Source: Tridacna crocea
Taxonomy: Eukaryota; Mollusca; Bivalvia; Cardiida; Cardiidae
DNA length: 64,000 nt
NCBI GenBank assembly: GCA_943736015.1
Contig: OX031065.1
Span: 2,239,501-2,303,500 of the forward strand
Direction of reading: 5' to 3'
Part shown: positions 3,353-63,050 of the stretch, piece by piece
Layout of the letters: the number at the start of each line of letters is the position of its first letter
Numbering within the stretch: position 1 is the stretch's first letter
The notes under the pieces: model-generated
What the model saw: only the letters and a program-made list of their open reading frames with translations
Told to the model about the DNA's origin: nothing
The model's database searches: none
Translations under genes and position numbers: made by a program

Positions 3353-3738
3353 GACATATCAGGCCTCTTACATATGGATTGTGAGTTCAAACCCCAGGAC
3401 CTGACACACTGATCAGCCTTGTTAACCGGAATGATAATGAATTAATAACTAGAGGCGCTTGAGCGCCTGTATCGCTCCACAGGCCTGATTTTTCTGTACC
3501 GGTGAAGAGAAGTCTTTTTACAATTACCATTCATTCCTGCATTTTAGGTCACTAAAGAAAAAAGGCTATGAAAATCATTGTGAGAAAAGAAGAAAATAAA
3601 AGTTACCTGCATTTTCTTAGTTTGACACAATAATTTCTACCCTTTTTGATACAAGTTTTACTAATTTGAAGATTTATTATGTTGCCTGCAACATCTTTCA
3701 ATTATGGCCAGTTATAAAAATTTTGTCTTCTAGTTTAG

Positions 3739-3905
3739 TTAACTCATTACCAAATCACAACATTCTATGGTTGTCCAAATGGAAAGCATTTGTAGATGAA
3801 AAAATAAAAGTGACTGAAAATTTGACAGTTGTTTTGTGAAGGGTAGATAACATTGTGGGAAAAGGTTACCAGCATTTTCTCTTTTTCCCACAATGTTTTT
3901 TAAAC
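3739..3905 (-). mobile_element. TTAA-type palindromic MITE, truncated
   Basis: Starts TTAACTCATTACCAAA and keeps the first arm and second arm of the palindrome (GTGGGAAAAGG.. TTTTTCCCACAATG) with a deletion between them; the distal end has decayed. Nested in H1. Confidence 0.6.
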
Positions 3906-4085
3906 TCTTCTTTGTCAGTGATCAGTTTGATTGGAGAACAAAATGCCTTATCACAACAGTAAAGCCCTGTCCCTCTTTCTACCAGGTCACCAGGAGGTCA
4001 ACAAACCTTTACCAGAACTAATCAAAGTGCAGAGTTTCCCTTGCTTTATATGAAAAGGATTACAGATTATGTAAAGCAACCATCT

Positions 4086-4314
4086 TTAACTCTTTACCAA
4101 ACGACAAAACTTGGGATGTGACCAAACTGAGAGCATTTGCAGACAACAAATTAAACATTGATGAAATGATGATTTCTCTCTTTCATAGAGTAGAAAACAC
4201 TGAGGTAAAAGGAGAAAATGCTGATTACCAGCATTTTCTCCATTTCCAAGAGTGTTTTCCAAAGACTTCTTCTTTAGGGTCCTTAAAAGTCAGGATTGTA
4301 CGGTAAAGACTTAT
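4086..4314 (-). mobile_element. TTAA-type palindromic MITE, diverged full length
   Basis: TTAACTCTTTACCAAACGAC at the left and GTACGGTAAAGACTTA at the right, with the palindrome around GGAGAAAATGCTGATTACCAGCATTTTCTCC. About 229 bp. Nested in H1. Confidence 0.75.
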
Positions 4315-5192
4315 CACCATTGGAACTAACCTTCAATACAACAATGAAATCAAAACAAGTAGTTTGAGAGAAGAAATTTTTCAAAGATTTTACTTTATAC
4401 CATAAAAGGAAAATGAGTCTCCCATAAAAGCCATGTTTTTTGACGGATCTTTTTTTTTTAAGGAATTCTGTAGACCTATATCTAAGGAACATTCCTGCAA
4501 AAAAATAATGCTATCCAATTAGCGGTTTGGGAGGAGAAGATTTTTAAAGGTTTTTTACTTTGGTTGCCATGGCAACCAGAATTATTCATGGAACACAATT
4601 ATTTGAAGGAATTTGAAAGAGGACCACCTAAGGAACATACCTGTGAAATTTGGTAAAAATCCAGTCAATAGTTTCTGAGGAGAAGTTTTTTAAAGAAAAA
4701 GTTTACGGACGCACGCACGGACGAACGGACGAACGGACGGACGGACGGACGCACGACGGACACAACGCCATGACAATAGCCCGCTGGCCTTCGGCCAGTG
4801 GAGCTAAAAAGGGTACTTGAGAGAAAAAATAAATGAAAGAATGAAGTAACCGTGCTGTGATTATACTTTTAAATTCAACCTCTGTTCTAATTAATCCTTA
4901 ATCTGCTAGACCAAAAAATAACTAGAACTATCACTGAAGGTGATGACTACCCCCACAAGCTCCGTGTCAGAAAATAACGCTTTTTCACAGAAATGCACAA
5001 TGCTTAAGTTCCATATGGCCGACTTGTTCCTGGTCATTAACGAAGAAAGTTCAAGTGGAGATAATTCTGCAACACATCGAAGCAGGGTTATGGAAATTGC
5101 ACATGCACAACTTCATATATAAAGATATACATGTAAATGAACACTGTGTAAATTTGAGTTCAGTGCCTGAAGAAATATCCGAGTATTTCCCG

Positions 5193-5622
5193 AGACAAAT
5201 CTGTCTCTACGGACGATGAGACAGTCATGGCGTTTCCAATATAGCCCCTTCCATCTCGTTGTGGGGTGTATTATCGTTACAGAAGGTGTAGATCAAGATA
5301 AAACATTAAGTCTAATGACTCAACAACCGGTTGTTAGACAAATCTGTCTCTACGGACGATGAGACAGTCATGGCGTTTCCAATATAGCCCCTTCCATCTC
5401 GTTGTAGGGTGTATTATCGTTACAGAGGGTGTAGATCAAGATAAAACATAAAGTCTAATGACTCAACAACCGGTTGTTAGACAAATCTGTCTCTACGGAC
5501 GATGAGACAGTCATGGCGTTTCCAATATAGCCCCCTCCACCTCGTTGGGGTGTATTATCGTTACAGAGGGTGTAGATCAAGATAAAACATAAAGTCTAAT
5601 GACCCAACAACCGGTTGTTTGA
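5193..5622. repeat. 144 bp tandem repeat, 3 copies
   Basis: Units beginning GACAAATCTGTCTCTACGGA start at 5193, 5337 and 5480 and end with CAACAACCGGTTGTT, itself a small palindrome. Copies are nearly identical, implying recent expansion. It lies in the intergenic region between the two convergent genes. Confidence 0.9.
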
Positions 5623-5716
5623 CAAAATTGATTTTATTGATCCATGGTTACATGATTTACTTGGTATGTTACCATGGAGATGCATTAAGCTCCCTTTTGC
5701 CAGAGTATGAATCTAT

Positions 5717-5928
5717 TTAAATCTTCACAAAACGACAAAATTTTAGGCTTGTCAAAACTGAAAGTATCTGCAGACGACAAAGTAATCATTAACTCAAAAA
5801 TTGAAATTTGTTTCCAGCAGGACAGAAAACATCGCTGGTTACCAGCATTTTCTCCTTTTCCCACAATGTTTTCAAAAGGCTTCTATCTCAGGGTCGTAAA
5901 AATCAGGGGTTGTTTGGTATAGGGTTAA
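5717..5928 (-). mobile_element. TTAA-type palindromic MITE, internally deleted
   Basis: TTAA..CAAAACGACAAAATTTTAGG to GGTATAGGGTTAA, with only the second palindrome arm fully kept (GGTTACCAGCATTTTCTCC). Confidence 0.75.
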
Positions 5929-6126
5929 ATCACACTGTGTTAGAATACAGAAGTAATTGTGAAAATGGTGATCTGTTATTGGACGGTCCGTCCGGATATT
6001 GGTTGTCAGTAGAAAAATGAATTTTTACCTATATCCTGCTAAATAATTGGACTGAATTTATTGAGTCTTTATATAAACCAAAAATTTGACATTTTGGTTG
6101 ACTAGATGTCCTCATTATGCTGTCTA

Positions 6127-6172
6127 GGTCCAAGATCAGACTGCACGTTCTAAGCAGTCTGATCTTGATCTG
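6127..6172. repeat. Interspersed palindrome, copy 3
   Basis: CAAGATCAGACTGC and GCAGTCTGATCTTG around a short loop; same family as 1044-1109 and 2335-2382. Confidence 0.75.
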
Positions 6173-6894
6173 CACTTTTCCCAAAAGATCAGTGAGTGGT
6201 GTTTAGCAGCCTATGAATTAAAAACTACGTAAAATATTGCAAGGTAGCTTGGTCATTTGTTTGCATTTTAACTGGTTTTGAATTTTGCATACAACAATCA
6301 AACTAAATGTTGTACCGATCAAGGGATTTGCGTTTGAATAGAAGAAGAGTTATGCGACAAAAAGAGAAACTGCTGGTTACCAGTGTGTTATCGTTTTTCC
6401 AAAATATCAGATGGAAGACATTTGTAGATAACAAGTGTCTAATGATGTGATTTCTCTTTGAAGGGGTATGATACATTTTCGAATAAGGAGAAAATTCTAG
6501 TAATCAGCATCATTGCAAGAGACATTTACAAGCAATGCCTTTAATACAGACACACCATAGATAAGCCTGCAAGTTCACAATGCTTGAAAAAATCATAGTT
6601 CCTGTTACCCTTTACCAAACAATCCATTATTTTAAAGTAAAGAGCATGTAGACAAAGGCTTTGGATAGACTGAAAAAACAGAGAACATACTGTCTGCCAG
6701 CATTTTCTATTTTTTCCTTTAATGTTTTTACCCTTTCAAAACAATTTCATGATTGAAACCTGCTTTAATTGTCGCCTGAAAAAAACTTTTGATTAGAAAG
6801 CTTCTAAAATTTTGTAGTTTGGTTCAGGCTTAAACAACATCATGAGATTCCAGTGAGATGCTATCCCTTCACACCATACACATTTGATAACGTC

Positions 6895-56823
<49,929 letters not shown>

Positions 56824-56870
56824 CTGTAAATGTATGTCAATGACATCTTTGCAAGTTACAACATAGCATT

Positions 56871-57099
56871 TTAACCCATTACCACACAATCCCTACTTTT
56901 GACGCCCCTAAAAAAGAAGCCTATAGAAAACATTGTGGAAAAAGGAGAAAACGCTGGTAACTAGCATTTTCTCCTTTTCCCACAATGTTTTCTACCCTTC
57001 ACAAAACAAATTTCAAATTTTCAGTCACTTTTATTTTGTCGTCTCCAAGCGCTCTCGATTTGGACAAGCCTAAGATACTGTCGTTTGGTAATGAGTTGA
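56871..57099 (+). mobile_element. TTAA-type palindromic MITE plus adjoining half copy
   Basis: TTAACCCATTACCACACAAT to GTTTGGTAATGAGTTGA; a second, partial copy (from AGCATTTTCTCCTTTTCCCA to GGTAAAAGAGTTGAAA) follows to about 57240. It lies only 47 bases from the MCM4 exon. Confidence 0.85.
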
Positions 57100-57764
57100 A
57101 ACAGCATTTTCTCCTTTTCCCAAAATGTTTTCTGCCCTTCAAAAATCAAAATTCAATTTTTCATTCACCTTTATTTTGTTGTCTGCAAATGCTTTCAATT
57201 GGGGCTAGTCCAAAATCTTGTCATTTGGTAAAAGAGTTGAAACATCTTTCCCAGCTTCAATCACTTTTGCAGCCAGTGCAGATTAAGATCAGACTTCACA
57301 AAAAACTAATCATAAACTATTCTGTCCTGTTTACCACGATGTTCATGGGCAAGCCCCAGTGCACCTCCACTTGTGTTTGGGACTTTGAACAACACTTTCT
57401 TACACCATCGGCTGCTCACCCATAAAGACATTGCGAAAATAATACTGAGCAACAAGAGAGGAATAAATCCTGAATATTGTCTATCCTCAGATAGAGCTTG
57501 CCTAGACTGGAATGCAAGCTTACAAACCCTGTAGTTTACCATTTAATCCACAGAGTAACTAAGCCAAGTCTTAGCCCTGTACCACACAGCAAGATTTCAG
57601 ATTTGTCACATTGAACCCATTTGCAAAAAATAATTTCAATGCAGCCCAAAAGAGATTTGTCTTCAAAATTGTAGAAAACATTGTGCAACAGGAATATTTT
57701 TTCTCTTTTTTCCTTAATATTTCCAAAAGCCGTTGCCCTCAGGGTCAAAAAAACATTAAATTGT

Positions 57765-58425
57765 ATAATAAAAACTTAATCATTGTCGATTCTAATTAAT
57801 GACACAAATCTATATCCTAGTCTTTTTGGACAAGTCTGATCACATGTCATTTAATTGCATCATAAAAACTTTGTCATTATCGATTCTAACTGTTGACACA
57901 AATCTATATCCTAGTCTATTTGGACAAGTCTGATCACATGTCATTGAATTGGATCATAAAAACTAAATCATTGTCGACTCTAACTGTTGACACAATTCTA
58001 TATCCTAGTCTATTTGGACAAGTCTGATCACATGTCATTGAATTGGATCATAAAAACTTAGTCATTGTCGACTCCAACTGTTGACACAATTCTATAACCT
58101 AGTCTATTTGGACAAGTCTGATCACATGTCATTGAATTGGATCATAAAAACTTAGTCATTGTCGACTCCAACTGTTGACACAATTCTATAACCTAGTCTA
58201 TTTGGACAAGTCTGATCACATGTCACTGAATTGTATCATAAACACTTAGTCATTGTAGATTCTAACTGTTGACACATATCTATGGTCTAGTCTTTTTGGA
58301 CAAGTCTGATAACATGTCATTGAATTGTATCTTAAAAACTTAATCATCATCGATTTTAATTGTTGACACAAATCTATATCCTAGTCTATTTGGACAAGTC
58401 TAATAACATGTCATCTGGTAGAGGT
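57765..58425. repeat. 94 bp tandem repeat, 7 copies, grown from a MITE end
   Basis: GACAAGTCTGATCACATGTC recurs at exactly 94-base steps (57829, 57923, 58017, 58111, 58205, 58299, 58393). The phrase TTTGGACAAGTCT..TGTCAT..TGG resembles the right arm of the TTAA MITE (TTTGGACAAGTCTAAAATTT..GTC..TGGTAA), and a decayed MITE lies immediately left (57575-57750). Confidence 0.85.
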
Positions 58426-58826
58426 ACCTCAACGACAAAATGTTTGACTCCAAACATTTATGGCAGACAAATGTAGCTCAAGTGATGATTTCTGTCTATG
58501 ACATGGTAGGAATCATTTTGAGAAAATCAAAAAAAGCCATTCACAATGCTTTCAAAAAAGTCATCATCTTCTGTTATTCTTCTCTCAACCTGTTATTCTA
58601 CAGTAGGTCCAAGTCTAAGTCATCGACAGAATTTTTTTGAAGACTACATAAAGAGTTGCCAAGTTGCTGTGTTTAAAGTTACTTTTACCATGTTCTAAAT
58701 TCATTTTCTGCCAGTTACTAACACTTAGACCAACTGTACATTCTAACATTACACCTGAATTTGGCACTATAAACATAGTGTAATGAAATCGTGGTTAAAA
58801 ACTATGTTATTCTACAAAGTAATTAG

Positions 58827-58867
58827 TGACGTCATTCTATGTAGAGAGACGTCATTCTGTATAAAAG
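58827..58867 (+). promoter_or_regulatory. Promoter-like cluster: two CRE sites and a TATA box
   Basis: TGACGTCA at 58827-58834, a second GACGTCA about 20 bases on, then TATAAAAG at 58860-58867, in the order and spacing of an animal core promoter on the plus strand. No transcript unit was recognised downstream, and this is antisense to MCM4. Confidence 0.3.
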
Positions 58868-58939
58868 AAGTAAGTTATTAAAAGGAATACAATCTGCATC
58901 ATCCTTTTTTCTCTCAATGTGAACTTGTTTTCCTTTGAT

Positions 58940-59110
58940 TAAGAGTTGGTCATGTTAGAATCAAAATAATCTTTCTTTCTTTCATGCTTTATCTTTCATT
59001 TAACCACGTTGTGAGTTATGAGGAGCAATAAATAAACCACATGATTGCCAATTTGGATTATTCATTGTGCATCATAACTCATAATTGTTGTTTATTAAAT
59101 GACAAACCGT
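58940..59110. repeat. Inverted-repeat element CATTTAA..GTTATGAG, copy 1
   Basis: CATTTAACCACGTTGTGAGT and its partner ACTCATAATTGTTGTTTATT are imperfect inverted arms about 100 bases apart. A second copy is at 61155-61335. Confidence 0.6.
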
Positions 59111-59120
59111 GATAGAAAAA

Positions 59121-60656
59121 GCAAGAGGGCCAAGATGGCCCTGGATCACTCACCTGAATTTTTGAGAGGACCATAGCCCCACTTTTTCTTAACCCATACC
59201 ACACAATCCCTACTTTTGACGCCCCTGAGAAAGAAGCCTTTTGAAAACACCGTGGGAAAAGGTGAAAATGCTGGTAACCAGCATTTTCTCCTTTTCCCAC
59301 AGTGTTTTCTACCCTTCCCAGAACAAATTTCAATTTTTCAGTCACCTTTATTTTGTTGTCTGCAAATGCTTTCAATTTGGACCAGTCTAAATTTTTCTTG
59401 TGTGGTAATGGGTTAAGGTATTGAAACACTGGAAACAAAATTAGTATTTTGCCAAGCAATTTTTAAAAGGTCACCTGTAAAAGTCCTTTCAAAATCTGAC
59501 CAGCAGTTTCAGAAAAGAGGAATTTATAGGAGTTTCTTGATTTCCGTACAATGCAAGAAGCCCCCATTCACCACAGCCATGTTTCTTGACCTATCAATAT
59601 TTCGAGAACAAATTTTGAAAAGGGTCATTCAAAGGGGAACATTTCTGTGAAATTATTTTCAAATCTGACCAGCGGTTTCAGAGAAGAATTTTCAAGAATT
59701 TCTTCATTTCCATATAGTGCAAGTAGCCCCCATTCACCAGAGCAATGTTTCTTGACAAATCAAAATTTCACGAATAATTTTTAAAAAGGGTAACCCAAGG
59801 AATATGTCTGTGAAATTATTTAAAAATCTGACCAGCTGTTTGAGAGAAGAAGAATTTTTAAGAATTTCTTCATTTCCATATAGTGCAAGTAGTCCCCATA
59901 CACCGGAGCCATATTTCTTGACGGATCATAATTTCACAAACAATTTTGAAAAGAGTCACGCAAGGAACATCTCTGTGAAATTATTTTAAAATCTGACCAG
60001 CGAGTTCAGAGAAGAAGAGTTTTTAAGAATTTCTTCATTTCTGTATTGTGCAAGTAGCCCCCATTCACCAGAGCCATGTTTCTTGACAAATCAAAATTTC
60101 ACGAGCAATTTTTGAAAAGGGTCACCCAAGGAACATCTCTGTGAAATCATTTTAAAATCTGGCCAGCTGTTTCAGAGAAGAAGATTTTTAAAGAATTTCC
60201 TAAAAAATTCCATTTCGTTGCCATGGCAACCAGAGTTTTTGACGGAATCAAATTCTGTGGACAATTTTTTAAAGAGGACCTCCCAAGGAACATTCCAGCC
60301 AAGTTTGGTCCAAATTGGCCCAGCGGTTTAGGAGGAGCTGATGTCTAAAGAATTGTTGACGATGCACAACGGAGGTAAATAGTAACAAACTTTATCTTTT
60401 ATAACTAGAGTTACTTCCCTTGATGAATGTCTAAATTGAAGTGACTTCATATAGAAGCCCATGTTAAACTTGTGATCCCTGAAATGGAGCCAATTTTGAC
60501 TCCAGGCCAATTATATGAAGAAACTTGTCAAAGATTTATTATATAAAGCTACATGCCAAATTCTGTAGCATTGGGCCTTGTGATTTCATGACGGACGACA
60601 GACACCGGGTGATCCTAAAAGCTCCTCTTGAGCATGCTGTGCTCAGGTGAGCTAAA
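59121..60656 (+). mobile_element. Helitron-like element H16, both ends present
   Basis: Left end GAGGGCCAAGATGGCCCT then GGATCACTCACCTGA; right end TTGAGCATGCTGTGCTCA hairpin into GGTGAGCTAAAAC. CTCACCTGA pairs with TCAGGTGAG. It has five array units (59480-60190), then CGTTGCCATGGCAACCAGAG, and a stretch like H7 (CCCATGTTAAACTTGTGATC). A full MITE is nested at 59189-59416. Confidence 0.7.
59189..59416 (+). mobile_element. TTAA-type palindromic MITE nested in H16
   Basis: Host reads CCATAGCCCCACTTTTTC before and GGTATTGAAACACTGG after; in H15 the same host sequence runs on without interruption (ATCATAGCC..GAGGTATTGAAACACTGG). TTAA bounds both ends. Confidence 0.9.
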
Positions 60657-60666
60657 ACTATATTCC

Positions 60667-61119
60667 TTAACCCTTTCCCAAACAAGCCCTGGTTTTTACG
60701 TGTCTGCAGTAAAAGACTTTTGAAAACACTGTGGGAAAAGGAGAAATTGCTCATAACGAGCAATTTCTCCTTTTCCCACAGTGTTTTCTACCATTTTTGA
60801 GAACTTTCTGACATTTTCTCCAAATCTAGAATTGTTGTCTGCAAACTCTTTTGGTTTGGAAGAGTCCAAATTTTGTCGTTTGGGAAAGGGTTAACCCTTT
60901 CCCAAATAATTCCTGGTTTTTAGGACCCTGAGGTAGAAGCCTTTTGAAAACATTGTGGAAAAAGGAGAAAATGCTGGTAACCAGCATTTTCTCCTTTTTC
61001 CACAATGTTTTCTACCCTGCTGGAAACAAATTTCAATTTTTGAGTAACATTTAATTTGTCGTCTGCAAGTGCTTTCAATTTGGACCAGTCTAAAATTTTG
61101 TCATTTGGTAATGAGTTAA
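60667..61119 (+). mobile_element. Two TTAA MITEs in tandem sharing one TTAA
   Basis: The first copy spans 60667-60894 (TTAACCCTTTCCCAAACAAG to TTTGGGAAAGGGTTAA), and the second starts on that same TTAA at 60891 and runs to 61119 (GGTAATGAGTTAA). The hairpins differ: ATTGCTC/GAGCAAT in the first, AATGCTGG/CCAGCATT in the second. One copy evidently inserted into the terminal TTAA of the other. Confidence 0.9.
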
Positions 61120-61154
61120 ATAACATATGGTCATATTGACAATAATTCCCATAC

Positions 61155-61335
61155 TTTTAAGAGTAGGTCATGTTAGAAACGAAATAATCTTCTTTCTATC
61201 ATGCTTTATGGTTCATTTAATCATGTTGTGGGTTATGAGGAGCAATGACTAAACAAACCAATTGCCCATGCGGATTACCTATTGTGTATAACTCACAATT
61301 GTGGTTTGTTGAATGACAAACCACAATAGAAATAA
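61155..61335. repeat. Inverted-repeat element, copy 2
   Basis: CATTTAATCATGTTGTGGGT and CTCACAATTGTGGTTTGTTG with the same middle (TTATGAGGAGCAAT) as 58940-59110. Confidence 0.6.
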
Positions 61336-61673
61336 AATATTCCTTAAATAAGATATGATCATTTTGACAATAATTCACATTCTTTTAAATAGCACAATTC
61401 AAATTTTAAGTATTTTAACACATGCATTATTTACTTTTGCTAATTATTGGGCCTTTAACCCTTTACCTGATTTGCCAAGTTGAGGCTTTTCCATTTCAGC
61501 AGCAAACAAGCAATTTCGTTGAAATGATATCCCCCGCCGAAAAAGACCTTTTTTGATACAAACGTATAGGAGGTATTCTGTTTTGCATGTACATGTGGCC
61601 TTTTTGTTATTGGTCCATGAAGAAATTATACGTTAAGCTCCCTTGTTCCATGGCACAGGATTTCATTAGATAA

Positions 61674-63050
61674 AAGAAGAGCCGTCAGAGACGGGTTATG
61701 CTCCCCGAACGAGTGCTTGTCATAAAATATATGAAATTGAAAAAAATTCACTTCGTTTATGCTAAAAGAACCTGTTCATGCCCCCCAAAATTTGAAGTGA
61801 AAAGGCAATTACTATCTTGGAGATAGCCAACACAAACTTGTAGAGGACAATAAGCCCCCTTTAAGCCCCCTTTTCCCATAAGACAATATTGGATCATTGA
61901 AATAAAAACAACGGGTGTGTGATTTGTGGCATTTTTAAATAATAATTCAAAATTCGAAATTTCATAAAATTTTGAGCAGTCATGTAGTAAATATTACATA
62001 AAACAATTTTTTACATGAAGCCCCCTTTTCCCGAGACGCAGCCTGAAATTGAGAAACAGGAAGAGAGGTACCTGGGCAACGTTCCAACAAGTTCAGATTT
62101 GAAATTTAACAAAGTTTTGAGCACCGATAAAGGAGATATAAGTGAAAAACAATTTTTTCCATGAAGTCGCCTTTTTCCGAGATGCAGCCTCAATTTGAGA
62201 AAGCAGGAAAGACATATTTGCGCATTAATAATTAATAGATTGAAAAAAACAAAGGGCACATGTTGAAACTTGTAGAAAAAGATAGAACCATGAAATTTCA
62301 TGAAATTTTGACAAAAACTGAACAAGATATAAGTAAAAATTGCAATTTTGCATTAGGGCCCCTTTTTCCTTGTCATTATCCAAGGAACCCCCTTTTTCCA
62401 TGACAGAGGGTCAAATTGAAAAACACATAGATAAAGAAACAAGAGCACATGGTGAAACTTTGAAAAAACAATATAACCATGGAGTTTAATGAAATTTTGA
62501 ACAAAACTGAATGAAATATTAGTAAAAATTTAAATTTTGCAAGAAACCCCCTTTTTCCATGACAGAACGTCAACTTAAAAAACGTCCAGATTAAAAATAA
62601 CAAGGGCACATGCTAAAACTTTCCATAAACAATATAACCATAAAGTTTCATGATATTCTGACAAAAACTGAATGAGATATTGGTAAAAATTGCAATTTTG
62701 CATTAAGCCCCTTTTTTCCATGACACGGGGTCAAATTGAAAATCAAGGAAAGATACGTCGGCGCCTTACCCCAAGGAATTCATATATGAAGTTTTATCCA
62801 ATTTGGTCCAGGGGTTGTGGAGAAATCGAGTTTTGAAGAGAAGACTCCAAACATTGAAAGTGTACTTCAGTGTAACTTAAGTGAAACTTAAAATCGCTCT
62901 CAGTCGGCCATTTTGCATCAAATCAAAAAAACAAAAAAAGTGTCTCGGGAGAATGGGTCATTGTATATGTATATAAAGTTTCACGAAATTCCGTCCAATG
63001 GTATTGGAGATATTTGCCGGGACGGACACACGGACAGACCAACCTAATAG
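61674..63050 (+). mobile_element. Helitron-like element H17, sister of H6
   Basis: Left end AGAGACGGGTTATGCTCCCC then GAACGAGTGCTTGTCAT, as in H6 but with the CTCCCC that pairs with H6's right end. About five units with CATGAAGCCCCCTTTTCC or CCCCCTTTTTCCATGACA follow. Near the end GACGGACACACGGACAG matches the tracts before other right ends, but the hairpin is missing. Confidence 0.6.

Follow-up and report, generated by a model that had tools for sequence, protein, structure and literature searches.

A 64,000-nucleotide stretch of the giant clam Tridacna crocea (assembly GCA_943736015.1, contig OX031065.1, positions 2,239,501 to 2,303,500 of the forward strand; hereafter the window) holds exon segments of an MCM4 gene and a crowd of short repeats that most likely belong to the HINEs, the non-autonomous Helentrons. 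The gene was recognized from three open reading frame (ORF) segments on the minus strand that match MCM4, at 56575-56889 (best chain 6raw_4, E 1.5e-18, residues 136-205), 23788-24120 (22vt_4, E 5.8e-37, residues 276-359) and 8288-8530 (8ouw_4, E 4.4e-31, residues 643-721). These exon segments span nearly 50 kb (56889-8288, minus strand) with many repeats between them, and a look with short motifs found no N-terminal MCM4 exons above 56.5 kb.

In forward-strand reading, which was that of an earlier note on this DNA, the full elements show a common order composed of a left hairpin with a subterminal sequence X, tandem units, an ACGG tract in some, a hairpin overlapping a second subterminal sequence X' and a final TAAAAA. 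The periods of the tandem units are often 155-167 bp, and range over 62-222 in E3 and E5 (numbering as in Table 1). Tandem Repeats Finder places the starts of ACGG tracts at 4705, 19927, 32515 and 51497, and most elements have no ACGG/CCGT tract long enough for this program. The earlier note had sorted the elements into subfamilies (H5, H7, H11, H16 and others) and named five pairs of X and X' strings, all of which were located in the window.

Matched ends and class assignment

To compare the two ends, X was aligned with the reverse complement of X' in the eight elements having both (11 positions each, nine for E9); the comparison omits loci with a single end, and E2 and E5 were placed in register by a GCTC motif, a choice that favours a match. 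Within elements, X and X' match at 73 of 86 positions, where 51.9 would be expected; 12 of the 40,320 ways of permuting partners, counting the observed one, score as high as this. When each family is represented by a single element (n=5), none of the 120 arrangements other than the observed one scores as well. Taken together, the families carry matched, family-specific ends. The proposal that X and X' are complementary in each subfamily is thus borne out across families, whereas within a single element the match is exact only in E4, E6 and E9. Two of the named pairs also join sequences from separate places: both H16 strings are present, but the exact X (30110, 33981, 55489) and the exact X' (13794, 51590, 60643) never share an element, and in the H17/H6 pair, whose strings are likewise present, the left end at 61.7 kb supplies X and the right end at 17.7 kb supplies X'.

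Ends of both types were also sought on both strands with profiles built from these same ends (33449 excepted), which makes the resulting E-values partly circular. Thirteen left-type ends (E <=7e-4) and nine right-type ends (E <=4e-9) were recovered, as listed in Table 1, together with weak left-type matches at 35896 (E 0.13) and 33449 (E 0.35). The right end of E9 (36370), which was no seed of the right-end profile, was missed by the right-end profile search of the window. A nearly family-blind rule for right ends, requiring a stem of at least 6 followed by a tail like AGC(T)AAAA, found nine sites on the plus strand, seven of them right ends of these elements, and one on the minus strand. When the window was resampled 30 times under a first-order Markov model, the same count over both strands averaged 3.3 and reached a maximum of 10, equal to the observed total, so that taken alone this rule is weak evidence. 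With the corresponding left-end rule (55 sites on the plus strand and 41 on the minus strand; resamples over both strands, mean 31, maximum 44), another palindromic repeat swamps the count. Since the right-end count only equals the resample maximum, the case rests on sequence similarity and end pairing and not on hairpins alone. That count, and the fact that the pairs in the earlier note were picked by eye, would suit a set of unrelated repeats whose ends are alike through chance or selection by the reader, but the permutation test, the sequence profiles and the constant order of parts in the full elements speak against this explanation, to which we give almost no credence.

When 24 outer flanks of 300 bp were compared, no likeness was found at E 1e-3 save for one pair, the left flank of 37824 and the right flank of 60656, which share two pieces on opposite strands, apparently via another palindromic repeat. 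As the outer flanks are unrelated, local duplication is unlikely. Exact-pattern scans for outside copies in viral, bacterial and archaeal DNA found none, which says little given those sources.

The filing of these elements as Helentron/HINE/pearl-type is well supported by their anatomy, although the left-to-right polarity given with it has to be inverted. In canonical terms, the right end of the forward-strand reading, with X' and TAAAAA, is the 5' end, and the left hairpin corresponds to the 3' palindrome, so that the canonical orientation is the minus strand of the window and the 5' end begins TTTTTAGCTC... In this direction a T-rich 5' end is followed by the 5' subterminal inverted repeat (subTIR), a short inverted repeat (IR) partly complementary to it, (CCGT)n in some elements (the reverse complement of (ACGG)n), tandem units often of ~155-167 bp, the 3' subTIR, a spacer of ~5-7 nt, the 3' palindrome and a CTTGTT-type end. 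The available portions of three papers (PMC2374699, PMC4067079, PMC7492417) describe HINE and DINE-1 elements in corresponding terms, with a 5' subTIR, a complementary IR in one variant, a microsatellite, central repeats, a 3' subTIR, a 3' stem-loop and insertion at TT. Subterminal inverted repeats, expected at ~11-15 bp, are present in the eight two-ended elements, three of them exact, with E9 matching over 9 bp only. A palindrome lies outside the 3' subTIR; among 16 folded left ends, 11 have a stem of 6-8 bp and one (61675) a stem of 5 bp. Of the ten folded right ends, nine (not 9547) are predicted to pair X' with an upstream IR, in line with one of two published variants, in which the IR complements part of the 5' subTIR. 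The GTCY/CCGT microsatellite and central tandem repeats of HINEs have their counterparts in the four ACGG tracts and the arrays. An A precedes all 14 listed left ends, meaning that T follows the canonical 3' end, and at least two further As stand directly after 7 of 10 listed right ends, both as expected for T-rich targets. A canonical Helitron, with 5' TC, 3' CTRR and insertion between A and T, was also considered and rejected, as most listed loci read (T)TTTAGCTC... and ...CTTGT-T by eye.

On the whole, the elements are very probably several families of HINEs. Their anatomy, matched subTIRs, shared orientation and unrelated flanks are seen in the window itself, and the mobilising enzyme and the role of the subTIRs are inferred. 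Their resemblance to published elements of bivalves had by itself suggested a bivalve host. Several observations weigh against it. The ends of E2, E3 and E5 are poorly matched, which decay or composite structure may explain, and X of E2 fits X' of E3 and E12 (10/11) better than its own X' (7). Four of the 16 folded left ends (E5, E9, 30189 and 33449) lack a clear 3' palindrome in the predicted structure, several loci are without one recognisable end, and no Helitron-type domain (Rep/helicase) was found in the 10 of 26 listed window ORFs that were scanned against Pfam. Short, non-coding elements with inverted repeats near both ends could also be described as a cut-and-paste family of miniature inverted-repeat transposable elements (MITEs) whose inverted repeats are subterminal, a class to which pearl and DINE-1 elements have been assigned, and the available part of one paper terms pearl elements MITEs (PMC5139131). 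However, the ends seen here are asymmetric, since the palindrome is confined to the outer side of the 3' subTIR, and the IR and CCGT tract to the 5' end, and DINE-1-like elements were moved to Helentrons in another account, as far as its excerpt goes (PMC4067079). We consider a MITE family quite improbable.

Orientation along MCM4

All 16 loci with a recognisable end, as determined by string search and profiles, share one orientation, along the MCM4 strand, and 13 of them sit between the outer two MCM4 exon segments, with 3448, 59121 and 61675 outside. The starts at 30189 and 33449, which are weaker, have this orientation too and were left uncounted. On the opposite strand, a right-type end at 37303-37229 (profile E 0.01) is a weak candidate; its X' of 11 bases does not recur exactly in the window, and the one near copy, with a single mismatch, lies at 31291 inside another array. 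Body searches with eight elements gave 24 minus-strand intervals, 23 of which came from E1 and E12, where nested repeats have palindromic cores, and the remaining one is a 30-bp self-palindrome in E3. By a fair coin, 16 of 16 has a two-sided chance of ~3e-5 and one opposing of 17 of ~3e-4, for a test picked after the data were seen. Seen in a single window, such one-sidedness could come from selection acting within introns, from a preference at insertion or from local chance.

Signals by which one orientation might be harmful were counted on each strand over 16 intervals (15,455 bases). The forward strand compared with the MCM4-sense strand has 11 versus 8 AATAAA, 10 versus 5 ATTAAA and 15 versus 6 pyrimidine tracts followed by AG, and 0 versus 3 GTAAGT, 0 versus 2 GTGAGT and 0 versus 5 GTATGT, all of them small numbers. 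Among the matches listed by a literature search that reached titles and abstract openings and few subscription papers, nothing concerned Helitron orientation bias in introns. If general, one-sided orientation in a long gene would offer a simple handle on the insertion of HINEs into introns or their removal from them.

Copied sites or base pairing

From the matched change at the two ends, the earlier note had concluded that end-to-end pairing matters for mobility. This is not established, because pairing and copied protein sites predict the same pattern between families, and inverted protein-binding sites inherited in each family would give it as well. A Helentron Rep/helicase acting in trans presumably moves the elements by rolling-circle replication, as proposed for the group, with the 3' stem-loop perhaps serving as terminator, a role taken from the literature on the group. 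X and X' would then be the same recognition site, bound by a family-specific protein and present twice in inverted orientation, and, both copies being inherited together from a source element, would change together. Inverted, copied recognition sites are the simplest and most likely account of the joint change of X and X'.

The suggested overlap of X' with the arm of the right hairpin is upheld by folding with DNA parameters, which predicts pairing of part of X' with the upstream IR in nine of ten right ends (exception 9547), and the available text of PMC4067079 and PMC2374699 already reports an IR at the 5' end that either complements part of the 5' subTIR or has one of its arms inside it. 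The 5' subTIR could be imagined as a structural switch, whose single strand would form a local hairpin with the adjacent IR or draw the ends together by pairing with the 3' subTIR, so that X, X' and the IR would have to stay complementary. Local folds of ~50 nt reach -5.3 to -16.3 kcal/mol depending on strand and element (nine with IR), eight X:X' duplexes (seven elements and one H16 composite, E2 left out) reach -8.6 to -15.3 with loop cost excluded, and the IR resembles X in several families. However, comparable energies on paper say nothing about use in the cell, the folds stand without a shuffled control and the duplex energies ignore the closing of a 0.4-1.7 kb loop. Moreover, 13 of 86 positions are mismatched within elements, and shared descent alone yields matched ends. 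A switch is an unlikely account, and the fuller proposal, in which the triad of 5' subTIR, IR and 3' subTIR is a single-strand switch selected across families and Helentron ends are matched by base pairing and not by protein sites alone, is a long shot. The same kind of search, in titles, abstract openings and few subscription papers, returned nothing on end-to-end pairing of Helentron subTIRs among the matches listed.

Catalogue, other repeats and published relatives

The elements and partial loci are collected in Table 1. E6 is a complete HINE, identified by Tandem Repeats Finder, string search, profiles and end comparison, and E9 has the most deviant ends. E2 is perhaps two elements or one decayed element.

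Table 1. HINE-like elements and partial loci in the window, with the end counted for orientation and the left-type (L) and right-type (R) ends recovered by profile
Locus	Positions	Strand	Counted end	Profile ends	Features
E1 (H7 type)	3448..4808	minus	3448	L 3448; R near 4808	subTIRs differ at 1/11; ACGG/CCGT tract 4705-4761; palindromic repeats inside
5' end	9042..9547	minus	9547	R near 9547	subTIR GCTCCACAGGC; body related to E6; no 3' end found
E2	10548..12193	minus	10548	L 10548; R near 12193	H16b-type 3' end at 10548, 5' end at 12193; subTIRs differ at 4/11
E3 (H16 type)	12840..13807	minus	12840	L 12840; R near 13807	subTIRs differ at 3/11; tandem units 124 and 62 bp
E4, complete HINE (H5)	14549..15384	minus	14549	L 14549; R near 15384	exact subTIRs 15370-15380 / 14577-14587; ~155-bp tandem units 14659-15305
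E5 (H6)	16122..17704	minus	16122	L 16122; R near 17704	5' end 17704, 3' end 16122; own subTIRs differ at 3/11; tandem units 16983-17595, periods 76-222
E6, complete HINE (H7)	18328..20014	minus	18328	L 18328; R near 20014	5' TTTAGCTCCACTGGC... at right (20014); 3' palindrome ...AGGGCCATCATGGCCCTCTTGT at left (18328); exact subTIRs 20000-20010 / 18355-18365; (CCGT)n 19927-19967; ~165-bp tandem units 18929-19762
3' end and truncated body	28174..28480	minus	28174	L 28174	found by profile; right limit by eye
H16b-type 3' end	30083..30188	minus	30083	L 30083	followed by a second, H11-like start from 30189 (by eye)
~161-bp unit array	30189..32549	minus			start placed by eye, predicted fold without clear palindrome; ACGG/CCGT tract 32515-32549; 5' end not found
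H16b-type 3' end, truncated	33954..34080	minus	33954	L 33954	right limit by eye
E9, HINE-like (H11)	35896..36370	minus	35896	L 35896 (weak, E 0.13)	exact 9-bp inverted pair 36361-36369 / 35922-35930; ~156-bp tandem units; right end unrecovered by profile; predicted fold without clear 3' palindrome
H16-type 3' end and array	37824..38890	minus	37824	L 37824	5' end missing; right limit by eye
H16-type 5' end and CCGT tract	51495..51603	minus	51603	R near 51603	no 3' end recognised; local hairpin lowest in energy among 10 folded right ends
Array related to E6	53428..54497	minus			same orientation as E6; no ends recognised
H16-type 3' end and array	55462..56564	minus	55462	L 55462	5' end missing
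E12 (H16 type)	59121..60656	minus	59121	L 59122; R near 60656	subTIRs differ at 2/11; ~166-bp units; nested TTAACCC palindromic repeat ~59188-59418
H17-type 3' end and body related to E5	61675..62753	minus	61675	L 61675	5' end missing

Two copies without a 5' part stop near AAAACAGTATT, at ~38865 and 56560 by eye, and perhaps form a shared truncated lineage. Other repeats lie among the HINEs. A second abundant repeat is built around a long palindrome, perfect or nearly so (like GGAGAAAATGCTGGTAACCAGCATTTTCTCC), with TTAACCC-type ends in some copies, and occurs at 4207, 10889, 27522, 46957, 50515, 53200-53428, 59188-59418, 60736, 60960 and 63541, nested in some HINEs. GGGCCAT-rich repeats adjoin ACGG tracts at 32515-32996 and 51300-51500, where by eye the junction module has opposite orientations relative to the tract; these are possibly another element family joined through the microsatellite. 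The sequences ACTACTGCAG and TTGCAGTAGTG stand at the edges of interrupted HINE bodies (28478-28495 and 53105-53125, by eye) and possibly mark the limits of an insertion whose termini are inverted repeats.

The matched ends are a real observation and one mostly described already, as the available text of PMC2374699, PMC4067079 and PMC7492417 already contains subTIRs that are family-specific and match between the two ends, together with the IR and the CCGT tract. The elements in the window look like ordinary HINE families, and the proposed pairing mechanism is unproven. They add HINE-like families, several inside one gene, and fit the published picture in which satellite-like units of molluscs travel within rolling-circle elements.

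The following comparisons draw on the portions of the cited papers that were available. For Drosophila the microsatellite is given as (CCGT)n(CTGT)n or GTCY, several oyster elements have GTCY/GTCC/GTCK in its place, and the central repeats of HINEs and DINE-1 are species- or family-specific (PMC2374699, PMC4067079, PMC7492417). Helentron families were defined in 2014 by identical subTIRs of at least 11 bp (PMC4067079), and among oyster HINEs one subTIR mismatch is the commonest state in most of 11 elements (PMC7492417). Yang and Barbash reported that the inverted repeats of DINE-1 keep their structure though the primary sequence changes, and found five distinct subTIRs across 11 species, with D. 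willistoni having three subtypes (PMC2374699).

Among bivalves, the pearl elements CvA, DTC84 and MgE, likened here by description only, are similarly modular with short satellite-like arrays, and the CvA repeats are related to BIV160/Cg170 and contain a microsatellite-like segment (PMC5139131, PMC7492417). DINE-1 of Drosophila shares 13-bp subTIRs that vary by species yet match at both ends, with one mismatch in D. mojavensis, as well as an IR next to the 5' subTIR, a (CCGT)n(CTGT)n tract, central repeats, a 3' stem-loop and TT insertion (PMC2374699, PMC4067079). Cg_HINE of Crassostrea gigas (PMC7492417), again likened by description only, comprises 11 elements, and the changes in their subTIR and IR are specific to each element. 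Whereas both orientations are reported for Cg_HINE and the window shows one, the two sets share a subTIR usually of 11-12 bp, a complementary IR beside the 5' subTIR, a GTCY/GTCC microsatellite in several elements, satellite-like tandem units, a 3' subTIR with a palindrome and insertion at T-rich or TT sites.

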